Both the position numbers and the translations under genes were made by a program. A model generated the notes under the pieces. The model saw only the letters and a list, made by a program, of their open reading frames with translations, was not told where the DNA came from and searched no databases. A stretch of DNA of 64,000 nucleotides from NCBI GenBank assembly GCA_001714685.2, contig MDTP02000003.1, positions 1 to 64,000 of the forward strand. Reading direction: 5' to 3'. Shown here piece after piece: positions 7,740 to 23,373 of this stretch; position 1 is the first letter of the stretch, and the number at the start of each line of letters is the position of its first letter. The DNA is from Methanosarcina sp. Ant1. Lineage in GTDB: Archaea; Halobacteriota; Methanosarcinia; Methanosarcinales; Methanosarcinaceae.

Positions 7740-8530
7740 TGCGAATCCCCTTCGTGTTTTTAGACCATATTATATTATTGGGGTATAAAATATGATCTTA
7801 TTTAATTTTTCTTATATTCGCAATGTATCTGGCTTTTCTGCCGTTCTCTAATCTTCACTAATCTTCACTAATCTTCACTATTGTTTCATATCATTTATTT
7901 TATATTTCTTATTTTATATCGTCAATTTCTAATAGCACACAGATTTCCTATACAAATAAGGGAAAATATATTATTTCGGACTTTGTTATTATAAAAATAA
8001 TGGGAGTGCTCCCCAGTAATATCTAAATTATTTTGATTTATACTGCAACTTTTTGTTGCTATTTTTCAAAATTAGTGCTCCAATAAGGTTCCTTCTGAGT
8101 TCAAAGGGAAGCTAACAGGATAATGTATCGAAATAAACTGGAAATTTATGCAGGTTAGTTTTTTGGGTCTAAAGAGGTCTTGAAATACAGTAAATTACAG
8201 TAAATAATACCCTGACCTGATATATTTTTAAAATTAGTAATGTCTGAAATTATTTGGCTAAGAGCTTTATATACGTACCTTCTTTACCCAATAGTATTGT
8301 ATAAGTATTTCTACTTTATCTTTTGATTCAACTCCTGACGAATATCCTGCCTGAGTTCTTTCGACATTTACCGTCATTTGTATCGTTGTTTTGCGGTTTT
8401 CCTCTTCAAATTCACTGAAATTGACCACAAAAGATTTAATAAGGCAATTATTTTATAAACACTTGTAATCCAATTTAGAGGGATAAGTAGGGAATGAAAT
8501 CCTCATCGACAATAGACGAAATATAATTAA
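7740..8530. other. Long spacer upstream of the S-layer gene
   Basis: About 0.8 kb without a credible gene. It contains a 10-bp tandem repeat at 7848-7880, a TATA-like CTTTATATACG near 8268-8278, and the proximal S-layer promoter region at its right end. A long AT-rich upstream region is common for very highly expressed archaeal genes, but no operator can be named. Confidence 0.5.
7848..7880. repeat. Short tandem repeat, unit CTAATCTTCA x3
   Basis: Three perfect copies of a 10-bp unit followed by a partial fourth, in the spacer upstream of the hypothetical gene at 7164-7739 and the S-layer gene. Confidence 0.85.
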
Positions 8531-8640: not shown

Positions 8641-10656
8641 ATGAAGAGATTTGCAGCAGTTACACTGGCTGCTCTCATGCTTTTAACTGTATTTGCATCC
8701 GCCGCAAGTGCAGTAGCAGCAAATGAAAGCATTGGGGTCCGCGGTCCTGTGTATAACGGCTCTAACATTAACGACATTTTAGCCAAACAACCTGGCGGTG
8801 TCATTAAAATGGATGCTACTCAATTTGCAGCATTCTTCTACGATATCAACGACAACGTGACAACTGAAACTCTTTCCATTCTTCCTGGTGGAAGCTCTGG
8901 CAACGTCATCGGAAAGAACAGTCTTGTCTACACAACCACCATTGCGAAGACTGAATACCAGTTTGAAGGTTTTGGCAATTACAGTGTGCTCGGTTTCTTC
9001 GCAGACAAGTACATCCCGCTGAAATCTAACGACGCTAGCAAGCTCGCCAAGCTCGTTCTTGACAGCGATGACAAGTACACCCTCAAGACCGGCGAAAAAC
9101 TCGATCTCGGCTCTGGATATGCTCTTGAAGCCAAGCAGGTCGATGTTGACGGTAAGAAGGTCTGGCTCGAATTCAGCAAGGACGGACAATATGTAGATGA
9201 TCAGATCGTCTCAACTGATGCTGGCTCTAACACCTGGACTTGCGAACTTGACAAGATTCAGGGCGAAGACAATGTACCTGTCCTGAAAGTCCATGTTAAC
9301 CAGGTCTTCCAGGGTGCAGTCGACAGCATTGCTCAGATCGATGGTCTCTGGCTCATTGACTACGCAAACGCCATGAAGATCGAGTCTGACGATGAATTCG
9401 GCAAACTCAACAATGTTGGTATCAGCGGTGCTACCCTTACCGTCTCCAACGACGATACCATGACTCTGACCAGGGACTCTGATGTGGAAATCGGCCAGGG
9501 AATGTTCTTAAAGGTCGCTGACACAGGCGCCGATGCGCTCAGGTTCTATGCATTTAAGGAAATCACAGATGCTGGAACTCATCAAATAAGAGGACAGGTT
9601 GCATCTGGTAACGCTGAATGGACTGCAGCTAACTTTGCAGGCTTCTTCTACGACCTGAAAAAGAACGTCGCTACAGAATCCCTTAAGGTTTCTGGTCTTA
9701 GCGGAAACGTGATCCCCAAGAACGGTCTCGTTTACACTACAACCATCGCGAAAATTGACTACCAGTCTGCAGATTTCAACGGATCTTATCCTGTTCTCGG
9801 CTTCTTTGCTGAAGAATACGTCCCACTGAAATCTAACGACGCTAGCAAGCTCGCCAAGCTCGTTCTTGACAGCGATGACAAGTACACCCTCAAAACCGGT
9901 GAAAAACTCGATCTCGGCTCTGGATATGCTCTTGAAGCCAAGCAGGTCGATGTTGACGGTAAGAAGGTATGGCTTGAATTCACTAAAGACGGACAATATG
10001 TAGATGACCAGATCATCGCAACTGATGTTGGCACTAACACCTGGACTTGCGAACTTGACAAGATTCAGGGCGAAGACAATGTTCCTGTCCTGAAAGTCCA
10101 TGTTAACCAGGTCTTCCAGGGTGCAGTTGACAGCATTGCTCAGATCGATGCAATCTGGCTCATTGACTACGCAACCGCCATGAAGATCGAGTCTGACGAT
10201 GAATTCGGCAAGCTCAACAATGTTGGCATCAGCGGTGCTACCCTTACCGTCTCCAACGATGATACCTTCACTCTGACCAGGGACTCTGATGTGGAAATCG
10301 GCCAAGGCATGTCCTTCAAGATCGCCGACGCCGACACACTCAGGTACTTCCCATACGTCGAGAAGACCATCGGTAACGAGACTGGTAACGTAACAACCCC
10401 AAGTGGCCCAAGTGTCACCCCAGGTAACGACACCAACGTAACCACTGGTAACGACACCAACGTAACCGCTCCAGTCGGTAACGAAACCACCCCTGCTGTA
10501 GGAGGAGAGACTCCAGGCGCAACCACCCCTGAAGGAGAAACTCCAGCTGCAAACAACACAAGCACTGAGAAGAAAGAAGGTTCTCCTGGATTCGGAGTTA
10601 TACTCGGAATTTCCGGACTGCTTGCAGTTGTCTACCTCGTCAGGAGGAACAAGTAA
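8641..10656 (+). CDS. Major S-layer protein with tandem DUF1608-type domains
   Basis: 671-residue secreted surface protein. A signal peptide ends at about residue 24 (VFASAASA). Two homologous S-layer domains follow (about 37-305 and 310-575), spaced 269 residues apart. After them come a Thr/Pro/Asn-rich stalk with several N-x-T/S sequons (NVT, NTS) and a C-terminal SPGFG plus hydrophobic helix plus RRNK. That tail matches the PGF-CTERM type of surface anchor processed by archaeosortase. In Methanosarcina, proteins of this design form the hexagonal S-layer and are N-glycosylated. The start is well supported by GGAGG eight bases upstream, a strong TATA box and a hairpin terminator after the stop. 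The second halves of the two domains are about 95 percent identical in DNA. Confidence 0.95.
   Translation: MKRFAAVTLAALMLLTVFASAASAVAANESIGVRGPVYNGSNINDILAKQPGGVIKMDATQFAAFFYDINDNVTTETLSILPGGSSGNVIGKNSLVYTTTIAKTEYQFEGFGNYSVLGFFADKYIPLKSNDASKLAKLVLDSDDKYTLKTGEKLDLGSGYALEAKQVDVDGKKVWLEFSKDGQYVDDQIVSTDAGSNTWTCELDKIQGEDNVPVLKVHVNQVFQGAVDSIAQIDGLWLIDYANAMKIESDDEFGKLNNVGISGATLTVSNDDTMTLTRDSDVEIGQGMFLKVADTGADALRFYAFKEITDAGTHQIRGQVASGNAEWTAANFAGFFYDLKKNVATESLKVSGLSGNVIPKNGLVYTTTIAKIDYQSADFNGSYPVLGFFAEEYVPLKSNDASKLAKLVLDSDDKYTLKTGEKLDLGSGYALEAKQVDVDGKKVWLEFTKDGQYVDDQIIATDVGTNTWTCELDKIQGEDNVPVLKVHVNQVFQGAVDSIAQIDAIWLIDYATAMKIESDDEFGKLNNVGISGATLTVSNDDTFTLTRDSDVEIGQGMSFKIADADTLRYFPYVEKTIGNETGNVTTPSGPSVTPGNDTNVTTGNDTNVTAPVGNETTPAVGGETPGATTPEGETPAANNTSTEKKEGSPGFGVILGISGLLAVVYLVRRNK
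9019..9504 (+). repeat. Intragenic direct repeat, copy 1 (S-layer domain 1)
   Basis: 486 bp aligned without gaps to 9826-10311. I count about 25 mismatches, i.e. about 95 percent identity. The DNA just upstream (8800-9018) is much more diverged from its counterpart. Confidence 0.9.
9826..10311 (+). repeat. Intragenic direct repeat, copy 2 (S-layer domain 2)
   Basis: Partner of 9019-9504, offset exactly 807 bp (269 codons), no indels. The sharp drop of similarity at the upstream edge suggests a conversion tract rather than a uniform old duplication. Confidence 0.9.
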
Positions 10657-10667
10657 ATTTTCTGAGT

Positions 10668-10707
10668 GAAGGATTTTCTTAATCCTTCTCTCTTTCAATC
10701 TTTTTTT
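10668..10707 (+). terminator. Hairpin terminator of the S-layer gene
   Basis: Perfect 8-bp stem GAAGGATT / AATCCTTC around the loop TTCTT, starting 12 bp after the stop codon and followed by a T-rich tract with seven consecutive Ts (10701-10707). Confidence 0.8.
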
Positions 10708-12697: not shown

Positions 12698-14422
12698 TTA
12701 GAACACCCCTTCAGTGGCGATTTCAACAGGCTTTTGAAGGTACGTATCCTCAACCATGTAATTGGACTTGCTCACTGTGTAATACTTCCTGAATTTAACA
12801 TCTATATCTTTCTGCATTGCGATGTCGATATTTGCGGGAACTTTAGCGTTTACCCAGTAGACCTTGCCTTTCGGAGTGGCTTCGATTTCTCCGTCTTTTA
12901 CAACAACCTCTCCATCTTTCAGAGTGTATGCTGCACCTGAAAAAGCTTTCTTAACTTTCGCGTACTCTGTCGAGGGATCAATCTGTCCAGGCAGGATGTC
13001 ATAGATTGCAATGTCGGCATCTGAACCAACTTTAAGGTTTCCTTTTTCAGGCATGCTGTACATCTTTGACTGAATACCTCTGGTCATGACGGCAAGCTCG
13101 TAGAAATCAAGTTCCCTGTCGATACCCGGCAGTACCATCCTGTCAATGGCCATCTTTGAAAATCCAGAAATAACCTCTTCCCTTCTCTTTGCACTCATAA
13201 GGTAGGTGAAAGCTTCAGGGTAGTTCACAAAAGAACCGCCGTTAGGGCTGTCTGTTGTAAACATGACTTTCCAGGGGTCTTTTACTAGCAGCGCAAGCTC
13301 AAGCCCGATTGCCCACTGGACTGCATTTACGAAACTCTTTGGAGAATAAAATAGGGGCACGACTCCGGACGCATCTTCCAGTTCAATGTCCTGGTTGCTC
13401 CATTTCTCGTGCAGCATTCTTGCATTTGCATATTCTACAGGTCCATCTGCGGTCATTGTTACTGCAGGGCCAAAGATAACCTGTCCCAGGTCAAAAGTCA
13501 TATGGTCTGCTCCATTCACATAGTCTGCAACCATGGGAGCTCCTGTCTCAAAGTCTCTCCAGGAGGTGCCTGCATAGGCATTGAACTGCACGTGAGTTAC
13601 ATGCAGAGCTTGTCTGTCTCTGCTCGGATTAATCTTCTCAAAAAGCTTCATGGTTTCTATTGTGGTTGCATAGTTTCCTGGCTTTCCGAGGTTGTTGCAG
13701 TGCACATGCACGGAATGGGGAAGCTGCAGGCGTTCATTGGCTTCGGCAAGCCCCATAAGGATCTCTGCCGGAGTTACATCAAAGTTCGGGACAGGGTCGT
13801 AGAGTCCGCTTACGTTCTTTCCCCAGCCCCAGGCTTCTCCTCCTCCTGGGTTTACAATTTTTACTCCGTAGCCTCTTGAAGCTCTCAGGCCCCACGAAAC
13901 ATACGCTGCCAGTTTTTCAGGTTCTTTATCCCTGATATACTCCATGACCTGCCAGTTGCTTCCAAAGAGGGAGAGTCCCATCTTGTCCAGGATTGGAATT
14001 TCTTTGAACTCCTCATGGGTGTGCCTTGCAGCAAGAAGGGGAATTGCAGCTTCACAGATAGTTGTGTACCCGAGTTTTGCATACCTGTACCCGATTGCAT
14101 AGGTATTTGGGGTATTGTACCCTACCTGTGCTCTTGTTTTTTCGGTACGCGCAACCTGGCCAGATAGCCCTGGTACAAGGTTTTTCCTTGCATCGTTTGG
14201 ATTCATGAAGCGCCCTACGTTAATTTTTCCGGCGCTGTGTGTGTGTCCGTCAAAGCCCCCTGCCATGGTGAGCCTGCCTTCTGCATCAATAATTTTTGCG
14301 CTTCCAGATACGCTTTCTACTATTTTTCCGTCCCTGATGCAGATATCCATAGTCTCGCAATTAATACCCTGGACAGGATCGCAGACGTTAGCGTTTTTAA
14401 TCAGCATTTCCGACATCTTCAT
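12698..14422 (-). CDS. fwdA: Formylmethanofuran dehydrogenase subunit A
   Basis: 574-residue amidohydrolase-fold subunit that condenses formate with methanofuran at a dinuclear metal site. The metal-binding HxH is visible in GHTHSAG (H60, H62). The Lys in YGVKIVNPGG (about K188) is the likely carboxylated lysine bridging the two metals, and later HVHCNN and THVQFN motifs supply more His ligands. The start overlaps the fwdB stop by four bases (ATGA). Length is typical of the family. Confidence 0.96.
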   Translation of the reverse strand: MKMSEMLIKNANVCDPVQGINCETMDICIRDGKIVESVSGSAKIIDAEGRLTMAGGFDGHTHSAGKINVGRFMNPNDARKNLVPGLSGQVARTEKTRAQVGYNTPNTYAIGYRYAKLGYTTICEAAIPLLAARHTHEEFKEIPILDKMGLSLFGSNWQVMEYIRDKEPEKLAAYVSWGLRASRGYGVKIVNPGGGEAWGWGKNVSGLYDPVPNFDVTPAEILMGLAEANERLQLPHSVHVHCNNLGKPGNYATTIETMKLFEKINPSRDRQALHVTHVQFNAYAGTSWRDFETGAPMVADYVNGADHMTFDLGQVIFGPAVTMTADGPVEYANARMLHEKWSNQDIELEDASGVVPLFYSPKSFVNAVQWAIGLELALLVKDPWKVMFTTDSPNGGSFVNYPEAFTYLMSAKRREEVISGFSKMAIDRMVLPGIDRELDFYELAVMTRGIQSKMYSMPEKGNLKVGSDADIAIYDILPGQIDPSTEYAKVKKAFSGAAYTLKDGEVVVKDGEIEATPKGKVYWVNAKVPANIDIAMQKDIDVKFRKYYTVSKSNYMVEDTYLQKPVEIATEGVF

Positions 14423-15794: not shown

Positions 15795-16178
15795 TTAATC
15801 TTCCATGTACTTCTTCATCAAAGACTTCATGTCCAGCGGCTTTTCATCCGTGACCTCAATTTCCGCAGGCACGCCTTTGAATCCGGGCATTCCGCAGCCG
15901 TGTGTATCAGGATTCATCACTGCATTCACCCAGGGTCCCATTGGGATAAAGGCAAGACCTTCCGGATTTCCGTCATTTGCCTTTGCAAATACTACCACTT
16001 CCCCAAACTCGGTGGTAACCTTCAGGCTGTCTCCCTCGGAGGCACCCAGCCTCGCAAGGTCTGCGGAGTTCAGCTCGCAGTATGTGCAGGCGTCAAAATA
16101 ACCTTTGTGTGTTTTTGCCTCCAGATGTGCGCCCTGGTCGGCAGTTCTTCCTGATATGAGATTTGCTTTTATTTTCAT
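15795..16178 (-). CDS. fwdD: Formylmethanofuran dehydrogenase subunit D
   Basis: 127 residues, a molybdopterin-dinucleotide-binding domain (double-psi beta-barrel) that in many homologues is the C-terminal part of the molybdoenzyme chain and here is a separate subunit partnering FwdB. Visible features are ELNSADLARLGASEGD, typical of the barrel, and GPWVNAVMNPDTHGCGMPG near the C-terminus. It is the first gene of fwdDBAC; GAGGAA lies seven bases before the ATG. The ferredoxin-like subunits (FwdF/G) and FwdE are not encoded next to it. Confidence 0.94.
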   Translation of the reverse strand: MKIKANLISGRTADQGAHLEAKTHKGYFDACTYCELNSADLARLGASEGDSLKVTTEFGEVVVFAKANDGNPEGLAFIPMGPWVNAVMNPDTHGCGMPGFKGVPAEIEVTDEKPLDMKSLMKKYMED

Positions 16179-16954
16179 GGAAATTCCTCATCTGGGATCT
16201 AATTCGGATATCTAGGTAAGCTGAATAATTTTTCTGAAACGTCAGTATCAAATTTCTACTATCCAACAGTCCTCTGAGCCAGAAGATTCAGGCGTCCTTC
16301 CAAGGACTGATCATGCCTGATGATGACTTATCATGACTTATCATTAACCCGAGGTCATGGCTTTCTTAAGAGGTATTGATTTAGAAATTTACGGGGGCCA
16401 ATGGTTAAGAGTCAATAGTTAAATGAGTGAATGGAATTCTGAGAGTTGGCCTCTGGAGACTCAATTTATCAGGAACGCTATCAAAAGCAGTTCTTTTGAC
16501 AATATTTCAAGTCTTAAGGATTAAAGGGATTATTTGTATGGGAAATCGATCCTTAGACGCTTTTTTAATTGGGTGCCTATTTAGACCGTTCATTATAATT
16601 CCATATGTTATATATATTTATTTAGATTTAAATTTGTTTTCGGCCTTTAAACTCATATATTGCTGATCAAAGTCTTTTCTGAAAGTGCTTTCTCGCTTAC
16701 CACGTTTTTAAAAATCGATCTGAAAGCTTATTTATATCGCTTCTTTATTATATATTTGTTTGCTATATAGGCTATATCCAAATAATTTCCTTTTATTATA
16801 TATCACCCTATTATGTTATCTCAAACATAACGTGTTTACTGATGTCTTTAATATATTCTGATAACTGGCAAACTCATCCTTCTCGATCTAAGGCAGCGTT
16901 CTTCAAGTAGTTATTTAAGAAAAAATACATTTTTTCCGCCTCCAATCGTTACCC
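16179..16954. other. Spacer upstream of fwdD, no gene seen
   Basis: About 0.8 kb of AT-rich DNA with short direct repeats such as TGATGACTTATCATGACTTATCAT near 16320-16343. It must hold the fwd promoter, but no TATA box stands out. A 79-residue frame at 16427-16666 has no coding character. Confidence 0.4.
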
Positions 16955-16964
16955 TTTAATATAT
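16955..16964 (+). promoter_or_regulatory. TATA box for tRNA-Met
   Basis: TTTAATATAT lies about 25-30 bp upstream of the first tRNA base at 16988, the usual distance for an archaeal tRNA promoter. Confidence 0.6.
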
Positions 16965-16987
16965 CTTTGTACATTTGTGTGTTGCAA

Positions 16988-17097
16988 GCCCGGATAGCCT
17001 AGTCGGTTGGGGCGCCAGACTCATAGGGACCTTATATGAGGCGTCTTTAATCTCCTGAGATATCTGGAGGTCGCGTGTTCGAGTCACGCTCCGGGCA
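16988..17097 (+). tRNA. tRNA-Met (CAT) with intron
   Basis: Cloverleaf: acceptor GCCCGGA / TCCGGGC with discriminator A (17097), D arm, anticodon stem CCAGA / TCTGG, anticodon CAT at 17022-17024, T arm GCGTG / CACGC with TTCGAGT loop. No CCA is encoded. A 36-nt intron (17026-17061) sits after the base 3' to the anticodon (37/38). A canonical bulge-helix-bulge fits: CTCA pairs with TGAG as the 4-bp central helix, the 3-nt bulges are TAG and ATA, and GGA pairs with TCC on the intron side, giving cuts TA^G and AT^A for the archaeal splicing endonuclease. The G-C first pair and long intron fit elongator rather than initiator Met tRNA. Confidence 0.95.
17026..17061 (+). other. tRNA-Met intron
   Basis: 36 nt, inserted between positions 37 and 38. 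Boundaries are set by the bulge-helix-bulge described for the tRNA. Confidence 0.88.
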
Positions 17098-18205
17098 TCT
17101 GAATTTTCTTTAAAAGCGTATTTTTGTCAAAATATTTGCTATCTATAACTTCAAGTCCTCATTCATTTTTACATGTTCTATTTTTCTCTTTTTTAGACCA
17201 TCTAAGATGCTTTTAAAATACCTTTTTTGTGATTGGTAGCCATATCCTAAACGTTCAACAGAGAGCCCGAGAATTATCTATGCTTTCTTCTGTGTTCTCT
17301 CTTCTGTGAATGTGAGTTAAGAAGCTTTAAGCCTCCAAAATACGAGAATACAGTTAAAAGCCTACAGTTTTTGAGTAAATCTTTTAACTTTTTCATTGAT
17401 TCATTTTGGAAAATCTTTAAATTAATTAAAACTCTCGCGTTTATGGCTTATTTTTGCAGGTTTCGTTCTTATTTCCGTGTTCACTCCGTCTATATTTACT
17501 AAATCTTTCCCATTTCAGTGACTCACTGAAGAACATGTGTTAAATGAGCCCCTTTTTCATTCTTTTTCTTTGTTTTCATAATCAGTAAAAAAGCGATTTC
17601 ATAAGGCTCTTTTTCTGTATTCGCTGTGTGCCTGGTAAAATGTTTATGAATATACTCGGACGGTAATCGATCAACTGCCCTATATTCACATAGTCACTAG
17701 ACCAATCAAGGTTAGAAAAGCATCAATGTTAAAATATCGGTCGTGCCCCTTTAGCTGGTTGATATTTCATCTTAGAATCCACTTTGTTCAAATGCACTCG
17801 TTTTCCAAGTTTACCTTCATACGATAACCAAAACATACACAGCTCGGAAAAGAGATGCAGAACGGAAGCATGTGAATTTACTGGATAAATATCAACTTAT
17901 TTTGATGGACCACCCAAAAATGACACAATGCCAAAATCTAGTGATGAACGTATAATTAAAAATCACTTGATATTGAAAATGGTCACAATCCTTTGAATTT
18001 TATCTGTCGATTGATGCCGAAAGATCTCGAATATTGAGTTTGATTGAAGCCTGAATTCTTCTTGAAAATTCAAGATTTCGATCAAAAAAATGCAAAAATC
18101 ACTAGATTTTGGAACTGAGTCACCAAAATATCTAAAAAATATGAACTGTTATAGATGCAAAGAAGATACAAAAGGAAAAATAAGGATTTCACTGGGTACC
18201 AACAG

Positions 18206-18446
18206 GATATCAAGGCAGTGCAAGCCGAAAACACGAGATTTAAAGAGTATTTGCTGAACGCTCCAGATGCACTGGAATTATTCTAGCTTCGGCCAGGTCT
18301 GAAGAATTGAAAGGCATTATACTTAAGCAGGAGCTCGAGTATCTTGAGAATATGCGTAATAACTATTGTTGCGGGTTCAAAAACTCATCAATCCGAAGGC
18401 TATAGAGGCACCTGGAGCTAAAAAACCATGGTGGAGATTTTGGTAA
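18206..18446 (+). pseudogene. Frameshifted remnant ending in KKPWWRFW
   Basis: Coding similarity runs through three frames: DIKAVQAENTRFKEYLLNAP..., then LASARSEELKGIILKQELEY..., then LLRVQKLINPKAIEAPG... ending in KKPWWRFW and TAA (18444-18446). Two frameshifts and an internal stop break it. The reconstructed protein end is helical and charged with a tryptophan-rich tip. The same tail recurs at 19801-19872 (LINQKAIETPGTKKPWWKFW). The parent family is not recognised. Confidence 0.6.
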
Positions 18447-18841
18447 CTTTTGTTTATTTCCTAAAAAGCACCTAATCGTCATCTTCACTAGGATATTTAG
18501 GGACAATAGAATACGATAGAATCCCGACCGCAACAAAAAAAATGCCAAGAACTAAACCAGCGGGACCGTCAAGAACCCACCCTAACCTCGCAACGAAACA
18601 CATCAGCACAAGCAACATTAATTATTAAACATAATATATTAATTGCGAAACAGTTATAAATAATTTATTATTTATACATCCCTTCTCCAGCAGAAAACAC
18701 TATCAAGGGACTTTTATTATATCTCTCTTGAAGCAATCTTTTTTATTACTGTTGCCTCTGACTGCTTAAAATCGAGGAGATATCCAAAGCCTAATAAAAG
18801 TACCTTTCTCAAAACACTACTACGTCCGTAATCAGAATAAG

Positions 18842-19069
18842 ATGACGCAATACCAGAACATCCGGGAAAACAAAGACGAAATAAAACGGTGGATATCCGT
18901 TATAAACAGATAGCCTGAGGGTGTGCGCTACTCGAGGCATACAGTCGTATATTCAATGTGTGAATACAACTTATACAAACGGACATCCATACAAACAGCA
19001 AAGAGCCAGAAAAATCAACATACGAATGAAAAGGGTATCAGACATATCAAATCAAAAAACAATTGTTAA
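18842..19069 (+). pseudogene. 75-codon frame with an internal TAG
   Basis: Starts at an ATG (MTQYQNIRENKDEIKRW...), meets TAG at 18911-18913 and continues in the same frame (PEGVRYSRHTVVYSMCEYN...) to TAA at 19067-19069. Composition on both sides of the TAG looks coding. Methanosarcina can read TAG as pyrrolysine, but in this relic-rich stretch a dead stop is the simpler view. Confidence 0.35.
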
Positions 19070-19560
19070 GCCCCTGGAACAAAAAAACACATTAAAGAAA
19101 GATTGGAGAATGCCCGGAAGATTTATGTTCCTTCTACTGTAGCCCCCGATACAGTCGCTCCGATGATATTCCCCCTCAAGATTATTTGTTCGGAACAGGA
19201 CCAAAGTCTTCCAGGCAATTATTTATTCACATACCCTACCGGTTATTCTTCACTCTTTTGACCTTTTAACTTCCCCTATAATATACAATTATCCCCCTAG
19301 TTATTTTAAATTAATTATACGAAAAATAGTTTCTGAACAAAAGTTACTTCCATATAATATATTTTAAAATCAAACAACAATTTAATATTAATTATGTTTT
19401 TATAAAATTTTTTAGGATCTCCAACATATGGTATTGAGCTTTTTTCCTCCTAAGACAACACATATATATTTTATATCAAATTCTTGGTTTTTAAACATCC
19501 GATAAGAATTATTATAAAAACTATCTAAAACAAATTTAAAATATTTAAATATTGTGCATA

Positions 19561-19580
19561 TCTGGTAGAGATTTTGGTAA
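19561..19580 (+). pseudogene. Tail fragment related to the WWRFW remnants
   Basis: The bases read W-stop-R-F-W-stop and match the final 20 bp of the 18206-18446 remnant with one change. It lies immediately upstream of the 123-bp dispersed repeat. Confidence 0.4.
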
Positions 19581-19628
19581 ATGTAGTTTAAGCATATTTC
19601 AGCTACAGTTATTGAAAACCCATTAAGG

Positions 19629-19750
19629 AATAGCTAGAAAATAACTTCGAGTTTTCACTTTGGGAATAGCTCTATAATTCCATTTCCCTAAATAATCATC
19701 AAAGACAATATCGGTAACCAAATACTTGAAATTATATTTTTGTCATTCCT
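19629..19750 (+). repeat. 123-bp dispersed repeat, copy 1
   Basis: Over 90 percent identical by eye to 33641-33763, same orientation, with only point changes and single-base indels. Both copies begin AATAGCTAGAAAATAACTTC and end near TTGTCNTTCCT. Weaker similarity continues downstream of both copies. Confidence 0.85.
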
Positions 19751-19800
19751 AAGTACTTGAAGTCTCACTATATTTCCTTCTTTTTTCACTCTAAAAACAG

Positions 19801-19872
19801 GTCCAGACGCTCATCAATCAGAAGGCTATAGAGACACCAGGAACTAAAAAGCCCTGGTGGAAATTTTGGTAA
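19801..19872 (+). pseudogene. C-terminal fragment ending in KKPWWKFW
   Basis: Open frame VQTLINQKAIETPG... ending TAA at 19870-19872. Only the tail of a gene is present, with no start. It is a second copy of the tail at 18206-18446 and sits about 50 bp after the dispersed repeat. Confidence 0.6.
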
Positions 19873-20030
19873 CCTTTTTTGGGGCCGAAAAAACTTACTA
19901 TTATTCTGGTTCTTTGGCTGTTCTCGCCCTTCAAATTCTTCAAAAACTATAATATGCATCTGCCTATAATGGGTGTGACTTTTGCCCCTCTTCAGGATCT
20001 TCAGGTGGCCAACAAGGGGTTTCAGCCGCG

Positions 20031-20290
20031 TTATAAACTAAATATTACATCCTGTACTTCTGGGCCACGCTCGAGGGTTTCAATTTTTCTAAGAAGAGTT
20101 GCTGCTGTTACCATCTTATAGGCCCCGATTACCTCTCTAAGTCTTCCTGATCTTCAAAATATGGGGTCTAAACCGTCTCTGATGCCAGGCTTTCCGCCGG
20201 CATGCTTTCCAGAGACTGAAGTCTGCGCTGAAGTTCTTCAAGTTCCAAATCTTTTTGTATGAAGTTTTGAGTCTGCAATGCTTGAGTAAA
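20031..20290 (-). pseudogene. Coiled-coil gene relic, frameshifted
   Basis: On the minus strand a charged helical stretch (QTQNFIQKDLELEELQRRLQ...) runs into a stop. After a frame change, a second coding-like stretch (SGRLREVIGAYKMVTAATLL...RKIETLERGPEV...) ends with TAA at 20031-20033. It looks like the C-terminal part of a helical protein that has decayed. Family unknown. Confidence 0.45.
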
Positions 20291-20555
20291 GACAAGGATA
20301 ATTCAAGCAGTTTGTGGAAAAAATTATAGTAGGAATAATAGTGAAAATTGAAGCAAGGGCAGAGAAGCAATTTGTAAAAAGGGATTCAACTCCTTTTTAG
20401 GCTTTTTTCGATCAATTTGGGGGATTTAACAGGATAGAAAACTCAAAAGACTATATAAAAATTTATGATATAATTAAATAAATATTTATATTAAGTACGA
20501 GTAGTTTATATCGAGGTATAAATAAAAAACAAAAAACTTTACTGTGTGGAAAAAC

Positions 20556-20963
20556 ATGAAAATTCGAGTAGTTAGTTCCAGAGAGGAAATCTTCACTCTC
20601 AATCCTAATGAACGTGTTGTTCACCTGGCTTTCAGGCCTTCGAACAAGGATATATTTGGACTGGTTGAAACCTGCCCGAAAATTGAGGTAATTCAGTTAC
20701 CGCCGTCTTATAGGCGCACGGTCTCAAAGTCCATTGAAATGTTCCTTGAGATGCAGAGAATCCAGCTCCTTGAAGGGGACGTCTGGGGTCACAGGAAGGA
20801 CATTAATGAATATTACAATGTTCCATCCTCAGTGATTGAAAAGATGAAGGCAATGAAAAATGAAGGTAAATCCACTGAGGATATCGAAGCCAAGATTTCA
20901 AGGGAAAGCAAGCTTAACCCTGAAATGGTTGCTTATATCCTTAATAGGGAAGTTCATGCCTGA
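20556..20963 (+). CDS. DUF1699 family protein
   Basis: 135 residues from the ATG at 20556 (MKIRVVSS...). A GTG at 20544 would add four residues but has no better ribosome-binding site. The sequence ...NPNERVVHLAFRPSN... with ...VSKSIEMFLEMQRI... is characteristic of DUF1699, a small, highly conserved, mostly Methanosarcinales family of unknown function often present in several copies per genome. No membrane segment is seen. The C-terminal half is helical and charged and ends with a region resembling a helix-turn-helix or UBA-like helical bundle, which is only a guess. It is monocistronic. Confidence 0.82.
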   Translation: MKIRVVSSREEIFTLNPNERVVHLAFRPSNKDIFGLVETCPKIEVIQLPPSYRRTVSKSIEMFLEMQRIQLLEGDVWGHRKDINEYYNVPSSVIEKMKAMKNEGKSTEDIEAKISRESKLNPEMVAYILNREVHA

Positions 20964-21444
20964 ATTCTTTCAGGATAAGATATGCCCTTAAAAATCTTTA
21001 CTGGGGATTAGACTCTACAGAAGATGTCGAATCTTTCGTGATATAATCTCCAGTTTAAATCTGCCATTTTGAGGAAATGAGATCACTTGAAAGTACAATT
21101 GATGCCAATTTTTCGAAAAGATCCTTTTCTTTCTTCAGGGTCATAACTGCCTTAATTTTTTTAGTCAAAATATCTGGATAATTATATTGAATTCTATATT
21201 TCGAATAATCGATTAATCTCCTGATCCTTAAACCAATCCTGAAGACTCTTAACGACTAAATAAATGGGTTTTATAGAGCCCTATTCTAACTTTTTAAGGA
21301 CCTTTTTTTCTAAACATTTATTCCTAAGAGTTTATGCCCTTTGAAGAGAAACGATACTTAGCTTTACGAAATATATTTTTGAATACAATTCAAGTTCGAT
21401 CGAACAGAACTCGGACACGTTTTTAAGAAGGGGATGTCAGGAAA
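20964..21444. other. Intergenic, no gene seen
   Basis: About 480 bp of AT-rich DNA between two small genes. No RNA gene or repeat was recognised. Confidence 0.5.
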
Positions 21445-21852
21445 ATGTTACTGATGGATATAGTGACCTGGGAACCAAAAGATTCAGCAAAGGTTGGGGA
21501 CCTTTATATGAATTACGAATACCCGAAGGGCATGAAGATAATTGACGAATGGATTGACCTTACGGGCTACCGCATGTTTGTGATTTACGAAGCTGATGAC
21601 GAGAAAATATATGCACCTTCCGTCCTTCCTTTTATCGGACTCTGCAGGTTCGAGACGATCCCGGTTATGAAAGCAGACAAATATATGCAGATGGCCCAGA
21701 AACATGCTGAGAAAACTGGAGGAAAAAAATATGGAGCTGAACAAAGAGAGGAAGCTGCAGAAAAAGAACTTCTACAGCAAATCGAGCACCTTGAAAAGAG
21801 AATTCAGCGACTGGAACACCACTCTTTTATCCAGCAGGAAGATACAACCTGA
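21445..21852 (+). CDS. DUF3303-like small protein with C-terminal coiled coil
   Basis: 135 residues. The first 90 match the pattern of DUF3303-type Methanosarcina proteins (MLLMDIVTWEPKDSAKV..., a YPKGMKIIDEW motif and an FETIPVMKADKYMQMA motif), a small alpha/beta-barrel-like fold of unknown function. The last 35 residues form a charged coiled coil (EKELLQQIEHLEKRIQRLEH) that is not part of the domain and could mediate oligomerisation. GGGGAT lies just upstream of the ATG. Monocistronic. Confidence 0.75.
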   Translation: MLLMDIVTWEPKDSAKVGDLYMNYEYPKGMKIIDEWIDLTGYRMFVIYEADDEKIYAPSVLPFIGLCRFETIPVMKADKYMQMAQKHAEKTGGKKYGAEQREEAAEKELLQQIEHLEKRIQRLEHHSFIQQEDTT

Positions 21853-22326
21853 GACCAGATTGTAGAGTCAGGTTCAGGATCCGATTTTAAAGCGTAGATT
21901 AATAACCCAATTGTGACAGTTTCTACTATTTTCGTTGATATTTTCCTATTTTTCCCTTAATTTAGTCCGAAAACTAATTTGACATTCAAAACTAATTTAT
22001 CCAAATTCTGAAGAAATTCCCTATTTTTGGATTAAAATCAAGATATTCACGGGGTCAAAATTGGCATAAATATAGTTTTTGTTTTTGTTCGTCAGAAAAT
22101 CTACGGTAACTGTCAGATTAGGGTCATAGCGTTCACATTCTGAGAAAACAGCATCAATAGCCTTCATCTTCGTGAGGCAGTCTGTGAATTGAGAAAAGAA
22201 TTTCATTAAATGCTGCCTATTGGTATTGTCCTGATTGATGCTGTCTTATCTACATGAATTCTTGATTTCATTTTTAAGTAATCCTGACAATTATCAGGCG
22301 GATATTCTCAGGATGTCTGGATGGCT
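21853..22326. other. Intergenic, no gene seen
   Basis: Spacer between convergent units. A 61-residue minus-strand frame at 22021-22206 has no support. No clear terminator hairpin was found for either flanking gene. Confidence 0.45.
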
Positions 22327-23373
22327 TCAACATCTCTTTTCGACATTAGTAGTCCACCAGTTAAAGACTTCCTCTCCACTTGCAATCCACGCTTTTTTGC
22401 CGGAAACGTATTCGAGGAATTTTTCATAATACTTAAGGTGCTGTCCATCAATTGATGTATTGTTGTGCCAAAGGATCGTAACCACGCCATTGTACTGTTC
22501 AACCTTATCAACGAGTCTTTTTATGAGCTCCCAGGCCTTTTTAACATCAAGGCGCATGTAATCTCTTAGCAGAGTTCGATCCATAATTATAAGAGGGATT
22601 TCGATGATGTCTATTTGTTTTCCGGTATTTCTATTGAAAGGTCTGAAAGGATGACATACTCCATTCCTAAAGCCTGCGCAGTCCGCGTACCCGAATGTTG
22701 TGTCATACTTGAAGCCTGCTTTGCTTAATAATTCCCATGTATCAGGCACTTTAAATCTCAAATAATGATTCCTATACCCTATAACCTGTTTGCCAAGAAC
22801 CTTTTCAAGCCTTCGCTTTTTTTCCATTATATCTTCAAAGCTCTTGTAAGATTCGTGCCCTCCATGCAGGCCGACTTCCCACCCATGATCAGATATAAAA
22901 TGTAACTCTGCTTCAAGGTCTTCAATTTTGTAATTGAAGTCCTTCTCTCCAGGATGTAGGGCTAGAAAATTGAAGCTGGATTTTGCATTGTATTTTGCTT
23001 CCAGCTCCATTATTTCTTTAAAATTCCAGCAAGGGTTACACTTCTTGTTGATTCTGGAAAAAGGTGCCTTCATAGCATCTGTTAAATTCCCTTTAGCAAA
23101 TGCTTTGGCCGTTCCAACGATTGGATAAAGTTCTTCCGGATAGACTACATCAATATCATGCGTAAGGCAGACTGCAAACTTTTTTCCATCCGGATATTCA
23201 GGGTGCAACCCGTTTTCTACCAGAAATCTGGAAACTTTGGGATCAAAAACATCCCTCTGACTACTTAAATAGTAAGGAAATCTATCATATTGGTCAGAAA
23301 AAGTCAAATTGTATTCTTCTTTTTTGGTAAAAAGATCCCAGAGTTCTTCGTTTTGTTTTAGTTTTTCAATCAT
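22327..23373 (-). CDS. Polysaccharide deacetylase-like protein (paralogue 1)
   Basis: 348 residues with a NodB-type carbohydrate esterase core. The Asp-containing first motif is CLTHDID (71-75 THDID), the metal-binding His motif is GLHGGHES (H170, H173), the Arg motif is RNHYLRF (201-207), and a terminal LWHN motif carries the catalytic His. An N-terminal stretch of about 65 residues (ELWDLFTKKEEY) precedes the core and is shared by the paralogues at 48591 and 56879. No signal peptide is seen, so it would act in the cytoplasm on lipid-linked or nucleotide-linked sugars. It is the last gene of the minus-strand Wbp-like operon. Substrate unknown. Confidence 0.83.
   Translation of the reverse strand: MIEKLKQNEELWDLFTKKEEYNLTFSDQYDRFPYYLSSQRDVFDPKVSRFLVENGLHPEYPDGKKFAVCLTHDIDVVYPEELYPIVGTAKAFAKGNLTDAMKAPFSRINKKCNPCWNFKEIMELEAKYNAKSSFNFLALHPGEKDFNYKIEDLEAELHFISDHGWEVGLHGGHESYKSFEDIMEKKRRLEKVLGKQVIGYRNHYLRFKVPDTWELLSKAGFKYDTTFGYADCAGFRNGVCHPFRPFNRNTGKQIDIIEIPLIIMDRTLLRDYMRLDVKKAWELIKRLVDKVEQYNGVVTILWHNNTSIDGQHLKYYEKFLEYVSGKKAWIASGEEVFNWWTTNVEKRC

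Follow-up and report, generated by a model that had tools for sequence, protein, structure and literature searches.

The systems closest to the one analysed here are prokaryotic genes whose copies have been kept alike over long periods. In methanogens, mtrA-1 and mtrA-2 undergo long-lasting partial gene conversion, for which the evidence came from GENECONV, trees and sequence identity (Wang et al. 2015, PMC4632066), and a wider survey described 26 prokaryote genes with concerted evolution over long times (Commun Biol 2018, PMC6053082), whose products often belong to complexes or homopolymers. The slmA-type S-layer gene analysed here resembles mtrA in having a homogenised part (in mtrA, one domain) beside distinct adjoining regions and in the clustering of own copies in trees, and resembles the surveyed genes in its recurrent long-term homogenisation. 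The differences are: mtrA-1 and mtrA-2 are two separate neighbouring genes of Methanococcales and Methanomicrobiales, whereas the slmA partners are domains of one polypeptide in Methanosarcinaceae; the slmA conversion edge falls within a domain, unlike that of mtrA; and the survey dealt with paralogous genes evolving in concert over their entire length, naming partial cases as future work, whereas slmA is a partial case. No S-layer gene is mentioned in the main text of the survey.

MA0829/SlmA1 (PF07752, 3u2g) shares its domain layout, a fold match to the second domain and its place near fmdA with the gene analysed here; the status of major expressed S-layer protein has been established for MA0829 and Mbar_A1758 (PMC3361143). 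No description of conversion between the MA0829/SlmA1 domains was found in the literature searched, which included a review that notes high similarity of the two domains at the dimer interface (PMC12175726). Likewise, the open literature yielded no report of gene conversion or concerted evolution connected with S-layers, subscription papers lying outside the search. The case described below therefore appears to be the first described conversion between tandem domains of an archaeal S-layer protein, within the open literature searched. It is a well-supported addition to the known examples of long-lasting partial concerted evolution and stands out because it links domains of a single protein, has sharp limits and extends across the family. 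Judged from sequence comparison, the two PF07752 domains that lie in tandem within an slmA gene very probably undergo recurrent gene conversion, which homogenises about 500 bp per domain.

The S-layer gene and the parts of its two domains

The gene occupies positions 8641-10656 of the window (the whole 64,000-nucleotide stretch of DNA analysed). Its 671-aa product consists of a leader, two tandem PF07752 (DUF1608) domains (D1 and D2; two stretches, E 1.1e-145, Pfam), a Thr/Asn-rich tether and a PGF-CTERM; PF18204, at aa 649-669, corresponds to the PGF-CTERM/membrane segment C-terminal to the tether. The protein matches 3u2g/3u2h (MA0829) with an E of 9.5e-114 and 66% identity, and D2 is the part that corresponds in sequence to the solved domain of M. 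acetivorans MA0829. The AlphaFold model of D2 (pLDDT 94.8) has the DUF1608 fold, with a TM of 0.94 to 3u2g. The fmdA gene lies close by (12698-14422, minus strand), and it neighbours the slmA counterparts in many Methanosarcina species (e.g. genomes G001, G006 and G010). Because of the two PF07752 domains with PGF-CTERM, the match to MA0829 in sequence and predicted fold, and the proximity of fmdA, 8641-10656 is assigned to the slmA1 kind of S-layer tile protein genes (major type, MA0829/SlmA). The parts of the gene are:

8641..10656, + strand: slmA-type S-layer protein gene, 671 aa (Pfam PF07752 twice, PGF-CTERM)
8770..8995, + strand: N-terminal segment of D1, a diverged flank that is not homogenised (against D2, silent difference 0.60 and amino-acid sites 0.28; groups with other D1s)
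9010..9495, + strand: D1 copy of the homogenised tract (edges at ~8995-9020 and 9460-9525; 94.9% identical to 9817-10302)
9574..9802, + strand: N-terminal segment of D2, not homogenised (groups with other D2s)
9817..10302, + strand: homogenised tract, D2 copy (supported in the same way as that of D1; domain-specific sequence beyond ~10330)
10390..10656, + strand: single-copy tether and C-terminal PGF-CTERM/membrane segment (Pfam; sequence read)

Three further observations were made in and around the gene: an antisense open frame of 396 aa (9508-10698, minus strand) overlies D2 and probably just reflects codon usage; a tandem repeat of 10 bp (TTCACTAATC) is located upstream of the S-layer gene at 7844-7883; and ~6 kb at 16178-22327 contain few open frames of at least 80 aa and gave no Rfam match.

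The two tract copies, offset by 807 bp, are 94.9% identical over 486 bp (neighbouring 486-bp placements at this offset give 93.8-94.2%), and the top-scoring segment is 9014-9518 / 9821-10325. Silent differences between D1 and D2 affect 17 of the 108 tract sites (0.16) versus 24 of 40 (0.60) in the aligned N segment (aa 57-117; Fisher p = 4.9e-7). The preliminary description of this DNA had thus been accurate for this gene in reporting domain ends of 486 bp with about 95% identity, silent sites included, after diverged domain starts of ~220 bp. It had also reported a sharp similarity edge, which holds for the left side, where dense mismatches reach 9018, the next mismatch is at 9087 and the transition takes place within ~20 bp; the right edge (~9460-9530) is softer. 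The coordinates to which it had attached the conversion, 8641-10656, contain the tract, yet they cover the whole gene and not the tract itself.

Silent divergence and domain trees in the Methanosarcinaceae

The comparison across species was based on 35 codon-aligned two-domain slmA-type genes from 24 Methanosarcina species genomes, one genome per species. Within these genes, silent divergence between D1 and D2 was high in the N segment (ps 0.52-0.90, median 0.73) versus the tract (ps 0.10-0.45, median 0.21), and was thus patchy where uniform dS along the domain had been named beforehand as an outcome that would speak against conversion. The median silent difference of the same tract domain between genes was 0.51. 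The nearest silent-site neighbour was the domain's own sister in none of 70 cases for the N segment and in 39 of 70 for the tract; because the other 31 tract domains are nearest to a non-sister, homogenisation is incomplete, or slower than speciation among close species.

The trees separate the two parts of the domain. In the N-segment tree the deepest split is D1 versus D2, save for a few long or basal rows; 34 of the 35 D1s fall into one group (at 99/100), and 2 changes suffice for the D1/D2 label, against 24 when it is shuffled. In the tract tree D1 and D2 are fully intermixed, the label needing 23 changes (shuffled, 24), and the D1 tract of the window gene pairs with its own D2 (support 100/98). 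Clustering of the two domains within species had been proposed as a check; run over the 24 species, it grouped the tract by gene and the flank D1 with D1. Nor did the D1s of different species come together over the tract: a D1 clade in the tract tree is rejected by 1470 lnL units (AU p = 5e-35). That the two halves of the S-layer protein undergo gene conversion, as the preliminary description proposed, is strongly supported by these contrasting tract and flank trees and by the patchy silent divergence.

The pattern was also present in six further Methanosarcinaceae genera (30 genes examined); in this extension own D1+D2 cherries amounted to 38/65 for the tract versus 11/65 for the N segment. 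One of the genes (L172) has a tract without any silent difference next to a flank at 0.27, in another (L173) the domains are alike over their full length, and in genus g11 a few genes show only weak homogenisation (tract ps 0.42-0.50). In nearly all relatives checked, one stretch evolves as a pair and the flanks retain separate histories; the two histories are combined whenever entire S-layer sequences are used for phylogenies, dating or tests of selection.

The pattern was missing from two other two-domain PF07752 families of Methanosarcina (24 genes, tract ps 0.56-0.81), which rules out a general trait of two-domain PF07752 proteins. Ectopic conversion between slmA1 and slmA2, which are ~77% identical inside one genome, was sought in eight genomes: same-genome copies (0.541) were no closer than cross-genome copies (0.528), indicating that conversion is local to the tandem domain pair. 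One slmA-like gene of 1610 aa (L055, G020:C29:83284-86970) has four domains, corresponding to a duplicated pair; its domains 1 and 3 differ by a ps of 0.12 in the flanks and 0.38 in the tracts.

Signs of conversion and rival explanations

In 15 pairs of close genes, 116 silent codons of the tract were alike in both domains and different between the genes, versus 61 shared D1/D2 differences; in the N segment of the same pairs, 6 were fixed in both domains versus 210 shared D1/D2 differences (some genes are common to several pairs, and the codon counts are not fully independent). The window gene and its close relative L015 gave ratios of both-domain fixations to shared differences of 20:0 in the tract and 1:8 in the N segment. 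The longest runs of identical codons were non-random in 31 of the 35 genes by the whole-domain run test and were clustered even inside the tract in 22 of 35; their positions vary by species and their length reaches 72 codons. The window gene passes the whole-domain test only, its within-tract clustering being not significant (p = 0.30), and therefore no single recent event is identifiable there. The silent sites of these domains evolve in concert and in patches; changes become fixed in both domains lineage by lineage, and the process stays within a single gene.

In a gene with very high expression, purifying selection together with extreme codon bias might make the two tracts alike without recombination; slmA1 mRNA does exceed mcrA mRNA in Methanosarcina (PMC3361143), and the amino acids of the tract are well conserved. 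However, shared codon preference cannot explain the likeness because the same tract codons differ between genes at a median 51% of silent sites; moreover, the N segment of the same gene is near silent saturation, and in 116 cases a species-specific silent codon is present in both domains at once. This makes the codon explanation very improbable. An independent recent duplication of the domain in each lineage would yield the own-sister clustering seen in the tract, but the entire domain should then be alike, and the D1 and D2 N segments are two old groups common to the species, which leaves such duplications next to no probability. Equally negligible is the chance of an assembly artefact produced by short-read repeat collapse: the assembly of the window comprises 342 contigs, but for the family an artefact is contradicted by the same pattern in numerous genomes assembled into one or two contigs (e.g. 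G001, G003, G004, G006, G009 and G029). All three of these explanations were tested and rejected as the cause of the likeness.

Cycles of unequal crossing-over, from two to three and back to two domains, could also homogenise the tract in place of non-reciprocal conversion. Two genes fit such cycles: an slmA-like gene of 925 aa, carrying three PF07752 domains, from a single-contig genome (L153, G095:C1:1468530-1470152), whose near-identical domains 2 and 3 (N ps 0.00, tract ps 0.01) include the flank and represent a recent tandem gain; and a 404-aa slmA gene with one domain, of D1-type start and D2-type end (L040, G021:C216:6952-8142). The extra domain of L153 shows that such repeats do recombine and that reciprocal exchange occurs. 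L040 may have arisen through a deletion when sequences within the tract recombined, or it may be an assembly collapse: its contig is short and the assembly incomplete. Yet in nearly all slmA-like genes the domain number is exactly two, one flank being of D1 type and the other of D2 type, and short internal identical patches, divergent on both sides, would require two exchanges apiece. We consider crossing-over cycles unlikely; non-reciprocal exchange fits best, given that the genes have kept both their two-domain layout and the difference between D1 and D2 flanks.

Under recurrent gene conversion, non-reciprocal recombination between direct repeats 807 bp apart, on a single chromosome copy or on two sister copies, would let one domain overwrite the other over a patch tens to ~250 bp long, the two-domain layout being retained. 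The diverged sequences upstream (with length differences) and downstream would rarely be taken in, either through a similarity requirement or through a constraint of their own on the D1- and D2-type ends, and the process would have continued through the radiation of the family. The molecular route is probably homologous recombination, presumably aided by polyploidy, and the stability of the edges may have the same basis in similarity or constraint. Up to 17 genome copies are reported for M. acetivorans (PMC3177094), and multiple copies would supply many templates.

In very close species, an excess of tract divergence raised first the suspicion of paralog import; the sorting of old D1/D2 differences seems enough to account for most pairs, whereas for L016/L023 such sorting by conversion does not seem clearly enough. 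In another pair (L029/L030, from G023 and G010) the silent difference is 0.07 in mcrA and 0.12 in fmdA, yet 0.35-0.55 in the slmA N segment, which could mean that another lineage donated a replacement S-layer gene.

Edges and proposed function of the homogenised stretch

Averaged over genes, the within-gene silent difference drops from ~0.7 to 0.2 across aa 119-135, is minimal at aa 164-243 and rises again from aa 275 to 300. Residues diagnostic of D1 or D2 are confined to the outside of the tract (aa 64, 80 and 115). The left edge lies somewhat earlier in other genera (~aa 99-117) and the first half is weakly homogenised in genus g11, indicating that the edge is not one fixed sequence. Limits of sequence similarity and domain-specific constraint on the ends are both possible determinants of the edges.

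The preliminary description had suggested that conversion preserves a symmetric lattice contact while the other part is free to vary. The first half of this suggestion fits the similarity of the MA0829 domains, which peaks at the dimer interface according to a review discussing Arbing et al. 2012 (PMC12175726). Selection for D1 = D2 protein identity was sought through pn/ps of the tract, which was 0.245 within genes and 0.239 between genes at low divergence; these equal values give no sign of extra selection against D1/D2 mismatch. Preservation of the contact is thus a possible consequence of conversion and at most a putative cause. The second half is contradicted by the flanks, which are conserved by type, D1 among D1s and D2 among D2s. 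There is a slim chance that recombination in slmA is locally raised or favoured: a variant arising in one domain would rapidly reach the other and the tile would change as a symmetric pair, with faster lineage-specific surface change and with the differing D1 and D2 ends shielded. The case raises the question of whether symmetric lattice proteins benefit from conversion, and slmA offers a natural system for short-range repeat conversion in genetically tractable methanogens.

Arrays of tract-like modules were also observed, as clusters of short matches over ~residues 98-257, roughly the homogenised part, with ~50-57% identity (G012:C26:67399-71680, G003:C2:3324943-3329289, G030:C2:3392235-3396590 and G005:C2:3794513-3798150).
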